Origin: a virus
Reading direction: 5' to 3' (one strand)
Virus record (IMG/VR): IMGVR_UViG_3300032116_001412
Location: 1-22,431 of that record
DNA: 22,431 nucleotides
Part shown: piece by piece, positions 13,528 through 22,431 of the stretch
Layout of the letters: each line of letters opens with the position of its first letter
Numbering within the stretch: the first letter of the stretch is position 1
Notes under the pieces: model-generated
The model's input: only the letters and a program-made list of their open reading frames with translations
Databases searched by the model: none
What the model was told of the DNA's origin: nothing
Made by a program: the position numbers and the translations under genes

Positions 13528-14409
13528 TTATAAACTGAGCAGCATATCAATCAGCTCCTGCTGCGGGAACATATCTACTTTTCCTCTAATTACATTAGTA
13601 TGTGAGTACATACCTGGATTCTTTTCTGCATATGCTAGATTAAGTACATCAAAGCCATCTGCACCCTTTTCTTTAACCCACTCTACTAGACCTACTCTAG
13701 GGTCAATATTATATCTCTCAGCGCAGTATAGTATCCAGTTTCTAAGAACTTTAATTTGCTCATCTGAATATCTATGCCATTGCTTATATCCTCTAAATGG
13801 TTTAGCTAGAGTTACTATCTGAGAAGGATCAGCTTTAACTCCTACATATGTTTTACCATCTTTAATACCACCAAAGTTACATACTTCAATAGCTACAGAG
13901 TTTCTATGCATTACAGAGTTTCCTGTACCAGTATGCCATCCATATCCAAATTCAGGAAATACTTGGATAAGCTCTCCGTCAAACTTAGCATTACTGTCTT
14001 TTACAGATTGTCCTCCTAATACAAACTCAGTACCTACGTTACCTCTTGTATCTCTAGCCCACATATCAGCTACTTGGTAAGGATTATGCCATCCTGCTGT
14101 GTGGTGTAAGTATATCCATTGTTTCTTTACAGGACCTTTAAAGTAAGTTCCTTCAGGCATGAAGTACTTCTTTATCTCAAGAGCATTTTCTACTTCTTGG
14201 TTTTCTGCATTATCAGTATTTAGAATACCCATTACAGCCCAGGTCTTTTCTCCTACAATACCATCAGGTAAAAGACCTACTTTCTTCTGGTAGCTTTTTA
14301 CTGCAGATTCAGTCTTTGATCCAAAGATACCATCTACTGTAAGTTTTAGAAACTCTTGAAGAGTCTTTACTGACTCTCCTTTGCTACCCTTTTTTAATAC
14401 AATTGTCAT
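13528..14409 (-). CDS. Endolysin: N-acetylmuramoyl-L-alanine amidase with peptidoglycan-binding domain
   Basis: This gene encodes 293 residues. Residues 1-60 form a PG_binding_1 domain (GSKGESVKTLQEFL, VDGIFGSKTESAVKSYQ, DGIVGEKTW). Residues from about 95 to 282 form an Amidase_2 (PGRP/T7-lysozyme type) domain with zinc-ligand candidates His102/103 (YLHHTAG), His270 (SHTNV) and Asp279 (KVDMFP). It should cut the bond between N-acetylmuramate and L-alanine during lysis. There is no signal peptide, so it would depend on a holin. ATG 14409 directly follows the leader AAAAACCAAC, also found before 1437 and 4419. The flanking genes are the coiled-coil membrane protein upstream and the holin downstream. 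Confidence 0.93.
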   Translation of the reverse strand: MTIVLKKGSKGESVKTLQEFLKLTVDGIFGSKTESAVKSYQKKVGLLPDGIVGEKTWAVMGILNTDNAENQEVENALEIKKYFMPEGTYFKGPVKKQWIYLHHTAGWHNPYQVADMWARDTRGNVGTEFVLGGQSVKDSNAKFDGELIQVFPEFGYGWHTGTGNSVMHRNSVAIEVCNFGGIKDGKTYVGVKADPSQIVTLAKPFRGYKQWHRYSDEQIKVLRNWILYCAERYNIDPRVGLVEWVKEKGADGFDVLNLAYAEKNPGMYSHTNVIRGKVDMFPQQELIDMLLSL

Positions 14410-17300: not shown

Positions 17301-17906
17301 TTATGTTAAAGTTGTTCCAGTTACTGTAAATGTTCTACAAGGAATATATTTTACTGATGCTGCTTTTCCTGTATATATAAAACTAGTTCCTGCATTAGTA
17401 AAATAATATGCAATTGTAGAAGCTCCATATAAAGTTGTTGAGGTCCAAAGTTCAAACTCAGTTATATTAAAAGGTGAATAGTTTAATCTTCTTGTATAAT
17501 CAGCACCACCTTCATAATTCATTATGTTCATCAATTCCCGGATATTTGTTAATCTCCATCCAGTAGTAAATGAACCTATACTAACTGCTAAAGCTCCATC
17601 AATTGCATTATCCCAAGGAACAGCTAAACCACTTACTGTTCTTCTATATCCTAATACATTAGTACCATTATATGTACTCCAATCTATTACAATGTTGTTA
17701 GTATATGTTTGTGTACCTAATTCATCAGTAAATCTATCTGTATTCCCAAATGGATTATTTTCATCAAGAATGAAAAATGATATATCTCTACCTGCTTCTA
17801 TATCTCCATCATCTCCAGTTCTATAGGAAATTGTTTGATTAGTTTTCATTAAAGTAGCTGTACTTCTAGATACAGCTGTAGATTTTATATCAATTCTTGT
17901 ACTCAT
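17301..17906 (-). CDS. Lcl/DUF1566-like C-type-lectin-fold tail protein
   Basis: This gene encodes 201 residues. The start TISYRTGDDGDIEAGR at 25-40 and NPFGNTDRFTD at 51-61 fit DUF1566 / Lcl C-terminal domains. So do the WRLTNIRELMNIMNYEG segment at 117-133, WTSTT at 154-158 and the terminal CRTFTV at 190-195. The fold is related to C-type lectins and is common in phage adhesins and bacterial surface proteins, so a receptor-binding role is likely. A second in-frame ATG at 17849 (MKTNQTIS) is a possible alternative start. I saw no reverse transcriptase or template repeat within the window, so I do not claim it is diversified. Confidence 0.78.
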   Translation of the reverse strand: MSTRIDIKSTAVSRSTATLMKTNQTISYRTGDDGDIEAGRDISFFILDENNPFGNTDRFTDELGTQTYTNNIVIDWSTYNGTNVLGYRRTVSGLAVPWDNAIDGALAVSIGSFTTGWRLTNIRELMNIMNYEGGADYTRRLNYSPFNITEFELWTSTTLYGASTIAYYFTNAGTSFIYTGKAASVKYIPCRTFTVTGTTLT

Positions 17907-17908
17907 AT

Positions 17909-19189
17909 TTATCTACTTATTTCTTCCCAGTCCATTGAAGCATATATCAGTTCAGTATTTGTACTAGCACTTACAACTAGGGTTAGTTCATTTGGTGTAC
18001 TAGTAAAGCTATTTCTTTGAAGCTGAAAAGAAAACAATGCTTCTTTTAATATGTCTAGATTTACTGAAGCTTGTGCAGTTGATGTAATAAATCCAGATGC
18101 TAGAGTTCTACCTCCAGCAAAACTTGTCCCAGTTATATTATATTCAACAGATGAATTAACTCCCGCAGGAACCCATGCTCCACCTGTAGTTGTACCACTA
18201 GCAATAACTTTCCAATTATAAACACCTGTTGCTACACCCATTATTGATAATGCAGTAAGAATTACCACACCATCTAAGTAACTTGCACCAAGTTTTACAC
18301 TAATAATTGGATAAAACACTCCTGCTGTAGCTAAACTTGTAGGCGCAGTAATAGGAGTTCCAATAGCTTGTTGAGCACCTCTAAGTTCATACCCACCTTC
18401 TGATATTACTGTGGAGCATATTTGCTTTAATGTACTTGTTGTACCAGTTACACCAGTATTAGTAAGTTCAATTCTTAAAGGTAAAGATGCGGTAGTTATA
18501 TAGGTTGATGCAATTAGATTAGCATGATTAAACTTATGACATAGTATAAAGTTACCATCTATTACAAAACCTAATCTTACAGTACCTACTCCTAACCATT
18601 CAATGTCAGTAAATAGTATCTGTGCTTGAGTTGGGTCTAAAGTAATACCTGAAGGACCTGTACCATCTAACTTGTCTACATTCCATCCAGTATCTCCAGG
18701 ACCATATACTCCACCAGCTTGACTTATTCTAGTTTCTGTTACAGAACCTGTAACTAAACTTCTCTCTACAAAACTAATAGTAGGCTTAGTAGCAACATTC
18801 TCTAGCTGAAGATATATACCATTATCGGTGCCAAAGTAACCTACTCTTTGTCTTAGATTATCTTGAGCAGGAGCTAGTACAAATGTGTTAAGTATTAGAA
18901 GAGATTTACCTGGTTGATAAGAAAATACTTTTGTTGTTTCTCTTAATACTTGAGAACCATTTGTAGTATTTACAGATAGATCTACTAGACCTTGATTTAG
19001 ATTAAATGTTGCTGCTCCTCCACTTGCTGTAGAAGTATTCCATAGTCCATTATCATGGTATCTATTACTTGAATCAAATAAAGTCAAAGGATTAGATACT
19101 CTTAATCTTCCAAATGCATCAGCTAACATTGGAAGATTAGTAAGTATATTTGAACCAGAAGCTCCTATTGAAGTTATTGCAGTTCCCAT
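17909..19189 (-). CDS. Phage structural appendage protein (DAFGRLRVS family)
   Basis: This gene encodes 426 residues. The N-terminal motif DAFGRLRVSNPLTLFDS at about 23-39, then VLRETTKVFSYQPGKSLL, VGYFGTDNGIYLQL and ITLDPTQAQILFTDIEWLGVG, match a protein I recall from marine cyanophages and pelagiphages. The C-terminal third is beta-rich (VVILTALSIMGVATG, NWKVIASG). It is probably a baseplate-edge or fibre-base protein. Its start shares a TAATG overlap with the 118-residue gene. The function is inferred from family memory and position. Confidence 0.78.
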   Translation of the reverse strand: MGTAITSIGASGSNILTNLPMLADAFGRLRVSNPLTLFDSSNRYHDNGLWNTSTASGGAATFNLNQGLVDLSVNTTNGSQVLRETTKVFSYQPGKSLLILNTFVLAPAQDNLRQRVGYFGTDNGIYLQLENVATKPTISFVERSLVTGSVTETRISQAGGVYGPGDTGWNVDKLDGTGPSGITLDPTQAQILFTDIEWLGVGTVRLGFVIDGNFILCHKFNHANLIASTYITTASLPLRIELTNTGVTGTTSTLKQICSTVISEGGYELRGAQQAIGTPITAPTSLATAGVFYPIISVKLGASYLDGVVILTALSIMGVATGVYNWKVIASGTTTGGAWVPAGVNSSVEYNITGTSFAGGRTLASGFITSTAQASVNLDILKEALFSFQLQRNSFTSTPNELTLVVSASTNTELIYASMDWEEISR

Positions 19190-19548: not shown

Positions 19549-20355
19549 TTAGAAATTATATAGTTCATAATATAAATAGAAAATACCAGTAAACTGACCT
19601 TCACCATGAATAGAACTTACATTAATAGTTAAATCATCAACTCCAACTGCACCTCCTATTAAATCTCCAGAGATTAAAATAGTGTCTGATGGTGCGTAGT
19701 TTATACCAGCGTCAATAAGATAAACTTCAGATACATCACCAAGACTATCTCTTGTTATTGCAAATCTTGCGTTTTGTCCAGGACCAGATGTTATACCTGT
19801 AATAAATGAGTAAGTTGTATTTGCGGCAGCAAGTACTGTTCCACCACCTGATGATGTATAACCATTTATACTTGTTTGCTGCAATCCATTTGCGTTAAAT
19901 ATTGCATAGTTTGCACCTGCTAAAAATCCAGTAGAGATCACATAAGGAATAAAATTATCATTAGCTGCAGGATTATAGTAAGAAGAGTGCTGCATGAAAA
20001 TATTATCAGGATCACTAAAATCTAAACTAGCATTGGTGATTGTTAAAGACTCAGCAGTTTCAAATGATGGAGCTGGGTTAGCATTTCCGGAATCCATTCT
20101 AATTTCAATAACCCCTTTAGGAGTTGTTACGTCTACTACACTTGTAACTGAAAGATCTACAGTATAATATGCTGTATTTGCTACTAAACCAGATTGTACA
20201 GCATCTTTAAGAGGCATTGCATAAGTCTGATACTTATCTCCTCTTTTATTAAAGCCTACATCAGCACCTAGCGCAATTAGATCTGTGTCAGGATCATTAG
20301 CTTTTGTTCTGATTAACTCTTCCTTTCTAAGGAATATCCAATTTAAAATATCCAT
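19549..20355 (-). CDS. Tail-cassette structural protein with beta-rich body
   Basis: This gene encodes 268 residues. Residues 1-54 are distinct and charged (ILNWIFLRKEELIRTKAN, then LGADVGFNKRGDKYQTY). They may be an attachment domain that docks on another virion protein. The remainder is Ser, Thr and Asn rich, with strands such as GYTSSGGGTVLAAAN, and ends in FYLYYELYNF. The ATG at 20355 lies five bases after the stop of the 40-residue gene. It is likely an adhesin or fibre component. The family is not recognised. Confidence 0.7.
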   Translation of the reverse strand: MDILNWIFLRKEELIRTKANDPDTDLIALGADVGFNKRGDKYQTYAMPLKDAVQSGLVANTAYYTVDLSVTSVVDVTTPKGVIEIRMDSGNANPAPSFETAESLTITNASLDFSDPDNIFMQHSSYYNPAANDNFIPYVISTGFLAGANYAIFNANGLQQTSINGYTSSGGGTVLAAANTTYSFITGITSGPGQNARFAITRDSLGDVSEVYLIDAGINYAPSDTILISGDLIGGAVGVDDLTINVSSIHGEGQFTGIFYLYYELYNF

Positions 20356-20360
20356 GGTCT

Positions 20361-20483
20361 TTATTTTTTAAGTTCTTCTAAGGCAGTAAGTATAGCCTGC
20401 ACATCTTGCAGACTATACACTCCCTTTAATGTTGCGGCATCTAGTGCCTGCATGATGATACTCAGTGCTTCTTCTTTATTCAT
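20361..20483 (-). CDS. 40-residue helical protein between fibre genes
   Basis: A hand translation gives MNKEEALSIIMQALDAATLKG then VYSLQDVQAILTALEELKK, with a stop at 20361-20363. Two amphipathic helices are joined by a short turn. It starts two bases after the stop of the large fibre, is in frame, and fills the 130-base gap exactly, so it is probably real. Similar tiny helical proteins recur in phage fibre cassettes, as I recall. It could be a fibre chaperone or a small structural part. Confidence 0.65.
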   Translation of the reverse strand: MNKEEALSIIMQALDAATLKGVYSLQDVQAILTALEELKK

Positions 20484-20485
20484 AA

Positions 20486-22431
20486 TTAAGGAACATATTC
20501 CATTGGGATAAGGTAATTCCTACCATTGATGTTTACCAACCATTGATTATCTGGTGTAGGTACTGATGCTGTAATTGTACCTACAGGATCTGCAAGAGTA
20601 CCGATAACTAGTTGGTTATCTGTAGTTGCTTGTGCATTATTACCAATAATAACAGAGTTATTAAAATCTTGAGTTGTTGTACTACCTCCTATCAAGATAT
20701 TATTTATACCAATAGTATTATCAGATCCAGCATTTGTTCCAATACCAATATTACCAGATGAAGTTGTAACTGATAATGCATTGACACCTAATGCTAAATT
20801 GTCTGTACCTGTACTATTAGCTAATAATGAAGACTCTCCAATAGCAATGTTTCCTGTACCTGTAGTATTATTTGCTAAAGCGTTAACTCCAACTGCTAAA
20901 TTACCTGCTCCGGATGTATTTGCTGTTAATGCTCCAGAACCAATAGCAGTATTACTACTTCCTGTATTTAAAGGTAAAGTGCTAGCACCAAATGCAGTAT
21001 TGTTATTACCAGTTACATTAGAAGCTAAAGCTCTATGTCCAGTTGCAGTATTACCTAATCCTGTAGTGTTTAATTTAAGTGCATTAAATCCTACACCAGT
21101 ATTTAATGTACCTGTAGTGTTAGCTCTTAATGCAGATTCACCAACTGCTACTGTTTCAATAGCAAGATTGGACATCAATGCTTCAAAACCTACAGCAACA
21201 GAATTAGAAGTTGCAGAGTACAAAGCTTTATATCCTACAGCTACAGACTTAGTAGATGAGTTAGTTCCTAATGACATAGCTTGAGAACCAATAGCTGCAT
21301 TCCACTTACCTGTAGTAATGACTGATCCTGCAGCATAACCTACTGCTGTATTATCAACTGCATTACTATTTGATAATGCAAAATAACCTACTGCTGTATT
21401 ATTATTAGAGTTATTAACATTTAATGCATAACTACCTACTGCTGTATTGTTTCCTCCAGAGCTATTATTCTGCAATGCCCCTAAACCAAATGCTGATAAG
21501 AACTGACCAGTTGTACTAGATTGTAAAGCATTTGAACCAAAAGCTGAGTTAGTTGCAGTATTTGCTAAGCCTGTACTATTTAGATTTCCATTAGCAGGAT
21601 TGTAAGTATATCTTGCATCTTCAGAAACTTTACCAGCAACACTTTGGAATAATACTCTTCTAGAACCACCATTAAGAATATCAGTAGTATCTATAGTAAT
21701 TTGGTTAGGACCAGGTATACCTTGAGGTCCCGCAACTCCCTGTGGTCCAGCAGCACCAGTTAAACCTTGAGGTCCTTGTGCTCCTTCAGATGCAAGTAAT
21801 GCCCAGTTAGCAGTATCCGCAGCTGGATCAAGAATAGCAGGTCCTACAGGATTAATACAAAAATAAGATGCTCCATTAAATGAAACTGCATCATCTGCTA
21901 CATATATTCCACCATTTGACCAAGCTCCTTGCCAGTTAAGACCAGCAGGTCCAACAGGTCCTGGTACACCTTGTATACCTTGGATACCCTGAATACCTTG
22001 AGATCCTTGAGGACCAGCAGGGCCTGTAGCTCCAGTAGATCCAGCAGGACCAGCAACACCTGGGATACCTTGAGGACCAGTAGCACCTATGTTAGCTAAC
22101 AAAGCCCAGTTAACTGTATCAGCAGCGGGATCTGTACCAGATGGGCCTACAGTGTTTAAACAAAAGTATGATGCACCTCCAAAGCTTACTGCATCATCTG
22201 GATTGTACATAGTTAGCGCAGACCATGCACCTTGCCAGTTTAATCCAGCTGGACCTATTGCACCAGCAGGACCTTGCAATCCTTGCTGTCCTTGAATACC
22301 TTGAACACCTTGTGAACCTACAGAACCAACTGGACCTTGTGGTCCCGGAGGGCCTTGAGGACCTTGTGGGCCAGCAGTACTTACAGAAGCAGCAAAGTCA
22401 GCAGCACTAATATTAACAGCTAAATAATCAT
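20486..22431 (-). CDS. Large chimeric tail fibre: collagen-like, duplicated binding module, YadA-head-like repeats (5' end cut)
   Basis: About 647 codons are visible, and the frame is still open at the right edge. The TTG at 22279 is therefore not a true start, since 50 in-frame codons precede it in the window. From the N-terminal side there is a short unique lead-in (DYLAVNISAADFAASVS), then three collagen-like Gly-X-Y runs, separated by two copies of a 51-residue module. Next comes a unique linker (NQITIDTTDILNGGSRRVLF), then about 13 repeats of the form NTAVGxxAL(xx)NTTG, as in YadA-type trimeric adhesin heads. It ends NINGRNYLIPMEYVP, without a visible S74 chaperone domain. The Gly-X-Y runs and YadA-type repeats both predict a trimeric fibre. 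This is probably a host-recognition fibre, but the tip is not identified. Confidence 0.85.
   Translation of the reverse strand, partial: DYLAVNISAADFAASVSTAGPQGPQGPPGPQGPVGSVGSQGVQGIQGQQGLQGPAGAIGPAGLNWQGAWSALTMYNPDDAVSFGGASYFCLNTVGPSGTDPAADTVNWALLANIGATGPQGIPGVAGPAGSTGATGPAGPQGSQGIQGIQGIQGVPGPVGPAGLNWQGAWSNGGIYVADDAVSFNGASYFCINPVGPAILDPAADTANWALLASEGAQGPQGLTGAAGPQGVAGPQGIPGPNQITIDTTDILNGGSRRVLFQSVAGKVSEDARYTYNPANGNLNSTGLANTATNSAFGSNALQSSTTGQFLSAFGLGALQNNSSGGNNTAVGSYALNVNNSNNNTAVGYFALSNSNAVDNTAVGYAAGSVITTGKWNAAIGSQAMSLGTNSSTKSVAVGYKALYSATSNSVAVGFEALMSNLAIETVAVGESALRANTTGTLNTGVGFNALKLNTTGLGNTATGHRALASNVTGNNNTAFGASTLPLNTGSSNTAIGSGALTANTSGAGNLAVGVNALANNTTGTGNIAIGESSLLANSTGTDNLALGVNALSVTTSSGNIGIGTNAGSDNTIGINNILIGGSTTTQDFNNSVIIGNNAQATTDNQLVIGTLADPVGTITASVPTPDNQWLVNINGRNYLIPMEYVP
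20600..21574 (-). repeat. YadA-head-like repeats (about 13 units)
   Basis: Units of roughly 20-24 residues carry NTAVG, NTGVG, NTAIG or NLAVG followed by an Ala-Leu pair and NTTG or similar. They match the left-handed beta-roll repeats of trimeric autotransporter heads, common in Bacteroidota surface proteins and fibres. DNA-level copies are diverged. Confidence 0.82.
21707..21784 (-). repeat. Collagen-like Gly-X-Y run 3
   Basis: It contains GAQGPQGLTGAAG and GVAGPQGIPGP triplets, and joins the second module to the linker before the YadA-like repeats. Confidence 0.82.
21791..21943 (-). repeat. 51-residue fibre module, copy 2
   Basis: It begins GLNWQGAWSNGGIYVADDAV and ends DTANWALLA. It matches copy 1 in the first eight residues and in the DDAVSF, GASYFC and DPAADT blocks. 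Each copy is 153 bases and in frame, so it is a duplication. Confidence 0.85.
21944..22087 (-). repeat. Collagen-like Gly-X-Y run 2
   Basis: It contains GATGPQGIPGVAG and GSQGIQGIQGIQG triplets between the two 51-residue modules. The short GIQ/GSQ triplet repeats suggest slippage-prone DNA. Confidence 0.85.
22094..22246 (-). repeat. 51-residue fibre module, copy 1
   Basis: It begins GLNWQGAWSALTMYNPDDAV, continues SFGGASYFCLN, and ends DTVNWALLA. Copy 2 lies at 21791-21943. The Trp-x-Gly-x-Trp, Tyr, Asp-Asp-Ala-Val-Ser-Phe pattern recalls a small carbohydrate-binding module of CBM5/12 type, which is an inference. Confidence 0.85.
22247..22372 (-). repeat. Collagen-like Gly-X-Y run 1
   Basis: Glycine at every third residue, with Pro-Gln and Gln-Gly rich triplets (GPQGPQGPPGPQG), predicts a triple helix. 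It is the first of three such runs in the fibre. Confidence 0.85.

Follow-up and report, generated by a model that had tools for sequence, protein, structure and literature searches.

The gene at the end of this viral contig quite probably encodes a host-recognition fibre of mosaic build from a crAss-like tailed phage, made from an N-terminal anchor, a shaft of collagen-like rods and CBM5/12-fold modules, and an outer arm formed by a β-roll, with segments that are exchangeable between related fibres. The architecture combines known parts that are widely shared. Together with a close homologue from another contig, the fibre offers a natural comparison of fixed and replaced parts in an environmental relative of the crAss-like phages.

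The Fibre Gene and Its Missing Start

The window, that is, the whole stretch of DNA analysed, is the entire virus record of 22,431 bases, and so the record holds nothing further upstream. All window features given with coordinates below are on the minus strand. The frame list of the window gives the fibre ORF as 20486–22429, 647 amino acids, open at the 5′ end to the contig end, which bears out the preliminary description of a truncated gene. A 100% identical fibre on contig L003 starts at the edge of its own contig. The start is supplied by a full-length homologue on IMG/VR contig L002, which shares 84% identity with the window protein in the best segment and has the N-terminus MDILNFINWKRSKRQ. 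This homologue is 683 residues long, so that the window protein should lack only 36 residues.

The order of parts is as originally proposed: three Gly-X-Y runs alternate with two modules of about 51 residues and are followed by a linker and then by repeats. The linker (21560–21703; residues 243–290) is modelled by AF2 with low confidence and is 100% identical in amino acid sequence to that of L002. The protein ends in a C-terminal tip (20486–20584; residues 616–647) with a W-x-V-x-I-N-G motif that is common to L005 and L022.

Phage Affiliation

The terminase encoded in the window matches 122 phage records, mainly crAss-like phages and phages of Bacteroides and Flavobacterium. The best rows have 24–26% identity, and the crAss-like alignment extends over about 85%. 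With its match to PHROG 6681 (E = 4e-61), the protein is related to the terminase large subunit of Crassvirales, and the portal protein also matches a PHROG family. The terminase and portal genes lie close together, as in phicrAss001, but the fibre genes are found on the opposite side from those of phicrAss001; the contig represents only a fragment. The phage thus appears to be crAss-like, a label taken mainly from the terminase, in a gene order that differs from that of phicrAss001. Its host is probably a member of the Bacteroidota, judging from the terminase and portal matches.

The identification of the protein as a phage fibre is supported by its matches to PHROG tail-fibre and virion families, by the crAss-like relatives of the terminase and by homologous pieces that are annotated as tail fibre. 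The same evidence supports the earlier view that it combines collagen shafts with an outer part built from repeats. The fibre might be attached to the head (capsid) rather than to the tail: the head fibres of phicrAss001 dock by short N-terminal peptides (PMC10172136), and some genes nearby have matches in PHROG head and packaging families. However, the best PHROG match is to a tail-fibre family and the relatives of the modules are annotated as tail fibres, and a head fibre seems rather improbable. The literature collection searched contains no paper on crAss-like phages that has both collagen and tail fiber.

The N-Terminal Anchor

The N-terminal segment that begins MDILNF opens two consecutive genes in L012–L015 and in L110. 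In the window, the gene next to the fibre (19549–20355; 268 amino acids) starts with a segment (20194–20355) resembling the anchor that the truncated fibre lacks, although weakly so, with 40% identity over 42 residues by BLASTP (pairwise E = 4e-5) and E = 0.0084 with an anchor HMM. The sharing of the anchor between consecutive genes in L003 is equally weak. From these sequence matches, it looks as if tandem appendage genes share an apparent docking segment.

In phicrAss001, the head fibre gp21 docks via residues 1–38 and the tail fibre gp22 via residues 1–26 (PMC10172136). Both are trimeric fibres with a short N-terminal docking segment, and their likeness to the window fibre is one of analogy, since the window anchor has no detectable sequence similarity to phicrAss001 proteins. 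A further difference is that the paper on these two fibres nowhere uses the word collagen (PMC10172136).

Directly after the fibre stop codon lies an ORF of 40 residues at 20361–20483, MNKEEALSIIMQALDAATLKGVYSLQDVQAILTALEELKK, inside a stretch of 258 nt that is identical in L002.

A Shaft of Collagen-Like Rods and CBM5/12-Fold Modules

The Gly-X-Y runs at residues 20–64, 115–165 and 216–242 comprise 15, 17 and 9 triplets, respectively. The Pfam Collagen family PF01391 matches the protein in three stretches with 66.8 bits, against a cut-off of 27.2 (E = 1.4e-18). Run 1 (22247–22372; residues 20–61 up to the start of module 1) and run 2 (21944–22087; residues 115–162 up to the start of module 2) are defined by the triplets together with PF01391, and run 3 (21704–21784) by the triplets. 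Collagen-like fibres of prophages are trimeric (PMC3368898), and the fibre described here is probably a trimer as well.

Module 1 (22094–22246; residues 62–112) and module 2 (21791–21943; residues 163–213) are 74% identical to each other in amino acid sequence and 66% in nucleotide sequence. Both are predicted to have the CBM5/12 fold, that of the chitin-binding domain of ChiA1. A profile made from 33 phage modules finds the ChiA1 domain (1ed7) as its first match, over the whole length, with E = 2.8e-8. Pfam PF02839 matches module 2 with 33.5 bits (cut-off 26.2), covering only positions 1–24 of the 44 in the profile. This is the one stretch of the window protein above the cut-off, and the L002 homologue reaches only 14.2 bits. 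For module 1, the AF2 model reaches a pLDDT of 96.4 and, in VIA comparisons, resembles the tail fibre of cyanophage A-1(L) (8kec) with Z = 8.7 and many binding domains of chitinases and deacetylases with Z = 5–8.4, including 1ed7 (Z = 5.7, 43 residues, 1.6 Å).

The likeness to the ChiA1 domain of the Bacillus circulans chitinase consists of the whole-domain profile match and the fold, but it does not extend to Trp687, known as the exposed chitin-binding residue. In the alignment with 1ed7, this position is occupied by Thr in module 1 and by Leu in module 2, and its equivalent is aromatic in 2% of about 100 modules from phage contigs. The earlier proposal that the modules bind sugar, which was made from their Trp/Tyr pattern, is weakened because the ChiA1 ligand residue is replaced; the conserved Trp and Tyr positions are most simply explained as those of the fold itself. 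Other residues may still mediate binding. Chitin binding should not be concluded from a CBM-type match in a phage fibre unless the ligand residue has been checked.

The Repeat-Built Outer Arm

The linker is followed by about 20 repeats of 16–17 residues, anchored by a Gly, with the pattern NxAxGxxAL. By manual count, 17 are regular and 3, at the end, are degenerate, more than the 13 or so units initially reported. The self-match of the region at a lag of 16/17 is 0.26, compared with 0.115 ± 0.014 for shuffled sequences (n = 5000, maximum 0.168). An AF2 monomer model, with a moderate mean pLDDT of 67.7 that rises to about 70–88 in the middle, folds the repeats into a β-solenoid with one strand per approximately 17 residues, and 18 models in a viral model library are similar to this solenoid at E ≤ 0.001. 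The proximal β-roll repeats (21056–21559; residues 291–458) are near-identical to those of L002, while the distal β-roll repeats (20585–21055; residues 459–615) are strongly diverged from it.

The repeats had been described as similar to YadA heads. As a description of the motif, the label stands, since the NSVAVGxxA unit is close to the known YadA head motif, but homology does not follow from it. The Pfam family YadA_head (PF05658) reaches at best 10.5 bits in the window protein, against a cut-off of 25, and is absent from the Pfam scans of ten relatives; a sequence search of the PDB with the repeats gave no match. A Foldseek search of the roll against the PDB gave nothing significant, and VIA-align returned mixed β-helices with a best Z of 17.5 (Vag8), which perhaps reflects merely the common solenoid arrangement. 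YadA heads are missing among the VIA-align rows, which is no evidence against a YadA fold.

In their strongest form, these resemblances would mean that the repeats are genuine heads of YadA-type trimeric autotransporters taken from bacteria, and a fibre ending in a YadA domain, over which read recruitment is low, has been reported for a pelagiphage (PMC3909814). The Pfam scan of the window protein contains no family for a YadA-type autotransporter membrane anchor, and the fibre gene sits among virion genes. A search of bacterial genomes with a single-sequence query found relatives of the repeats mostly in Bacteroidota, with some in Verrucomicrobia, Acidobacteria and others. In the five of these bacterial proteins that were scanned, Peptidase_S74 is present and the YadA anchor absent; the phage relatives L009 and L025 likewise carry Peptidase_S74. 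With neither a YadA_head match nor a PDB sequence match, an origin from autotransporter heads is unlikely.

The repeats are shared with NTAVG-type fibres of marine phages and with bacterial Peptidase_S74 surface proteins, which have the same period of 16–17 residues and about 30–48% identity. Most of those examined end in Peptidase_S74 or a different tip and have neither collagen nor CBM, whereas the window fibre ends in its short W-x-V-x-I-N-G tip. Very long arrays of the motif also occur: L004 (1–9132) has 189 NxAxG matches in a single frame of 3044 residues and L007 (1–6642) has 127 in a single frame of 2214 residues, both open at the 5′ end.

Uneven Divergence and Apparent Segment Exchange

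Divergence along the fibre was mapped against one close full-length relative, L002, with which the window protein aligns over 647 residues with zero gaps. Amino acid identity is 92–100% in the lead, the collagen runs, the linker and the greater part of the proximal roll, but only 77% in CBM module 1, 74% in module 2 and 49–58% in the distal roll, with 87.5% in the tip. Synonymous divergence follows the same division. The dS is 0.11 in the lead and first collagen run, 0.06 in the linker and 0.016 in the proximal roll, compared with 0.43 and 0.35 in the two CBM modules and 0.72 (residues 459–575) and 0.51 (residues 576–615) in the distal roll. The tip is intermediate (0.45), and the 258 nt downstream of the gene are 100% identical. 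Such a jump in synonymous divergence inside one gene points to the exchange of segments rather than solely to a higher rate of amino acid change, and fits a scheme in which the CBM modules and distal repeats are exchanged as cassettes.

The suggestion that repeat number tunes the length of the fibre finds no counterpart in this pair, which differs by substitutions and apparent segment exchange and by no indel. Among more distant fibres, module and repeat numbers vary widely.

Two other sources of variation were considered. Diversifying selection is not indicated in the CBM modules and distal roll, where dN/dS is below 1, as it is wherever the counts are meaningful; the value of 1.17 in the proximal roll is based on 9 changes only. 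Adenine-directed hypermutation by a DGR is not favoured for the CBM variation either, as the 54 substitutions affect each of the four bases of the window sequence (A 17, T 13, C 14, G 10).

The differences between the window and L002 modules fall mostly in predicted loops, including the loop that bears the ligand Trp in ChiA1, and this bears on two readings of the modules. The modules may be true lectins for chitin-like or GlcNAc-containing surface glycans, so that adsorption would occur mainly along the fibre shaft. Faster divergence than in the rods, concentrated in these loops, would be in keeping with such a role, as would the fold shared with binding domains of chitinases and chitin deacetylases and the PF02839 (CBM_5_12) score above the cut-off. 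The replaced Trp687, rarely aromatic in phage modules, and the partial Pfam match speak against it, and lectin function is conceivable but doubtful. Alternatively, the modules may be structural beads that hold the three chains in register, leaving recognition solely to the distal roll. The absence of the canonical ligand Trp and the structural role of the conserved aromatics agree with this, and phages alternate from 1 to 15 copies of the module with collagen; a similar domain is present in the tail fibre structure 8kec. Pure spacers, however, would not be expected to diverge more than the flanking rods, and mostly in loops, and we hold a purely structural role to be a real possibility that falls somewhat short of an even chance.

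The reading preferred here, the mosaic host-recognition fibre, takes the distal repeats and the module loops as the likeliest surface contacts. The trimer would dock on the virion by the short N-terminal peptide (MDILNF…), 36 residues of which lie outside the window. Three collagen-like rods with two CBM5/12-fold beads between them would form the shaft, from which the β-roll with its period of 16–17 residues would project outward to end in the small C-terminal tip. Distal repeats and exposed bead loops would contact the cell surface, and new surface variants could be gained by swapping distal repeats or bead segments among related fibres; the anchor, the rods, the proximal repeats and the total length would stay fixed. 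A narrower and more tentative proposal is that the outer roll is an exchangeable recognition cassette: distal repeats would be swapped between phages at constant fibre length, with the CBM beads exchanged too, and the near-identical proximal repeats and conserved downstream region might serve as landing sites for recombination.

Distribution of the Architecture

An alternating rod of collagen and modules had been thought unusual for a phage. Yet, 123 sequenced phage records contain the collagen–CBM piece, in most cases under a tail-fibre annotation, with about 39–58% identity among the matches listed, and up to 15 modules occur in one IMG/VR ORF. Phages of the Flavobacterium elemo group and Escherichia phages JS10 and Rogue1 have a GLNWQGxW-type module beside Gly-X-Y runs, as in the window. 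These collagen–CBM5/12 tail fibres differ from the present one in that no phage record matches the complete window protein: none of 96 covers 80% of it.

In IMG/VR, collagen, CBM and NxAxG repeats are found together in L041, L050 and L061, besides L002, and shafts of the same kind carry other tips in L030, L031 and L012–L016. The longest alternations are in L032 (2–7648), an open frame of 2549 residues with 15 CBM5/12-fold modules between collagen-like runs, and in L033 (2–5728), an open frame of 1909 residues with 14.

Other Genes in the Window

The gene at 17909–19189 encodes a 426-residue product that belongs with PHROG 1645 (virion structural) by its match and shares about 62% identity with proteins from Puniceispirillum phage HMO-2011 and many cyanophages. 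The terminase of this phage matches no phage record nearly so closely, and the gene at 17909–19189 looks to have been horizontally exchanged between unrelated phages. The gene at 17301–17906 encodes a 201-residue protein with an Lcl C-terminal-like domain that scores 28.7 bits, under the cut-off of 34.9. At 13528–14409, a 293-residue product combines a peptidoglycan-binding domain with Amidase_2 and is a probable endolysin.
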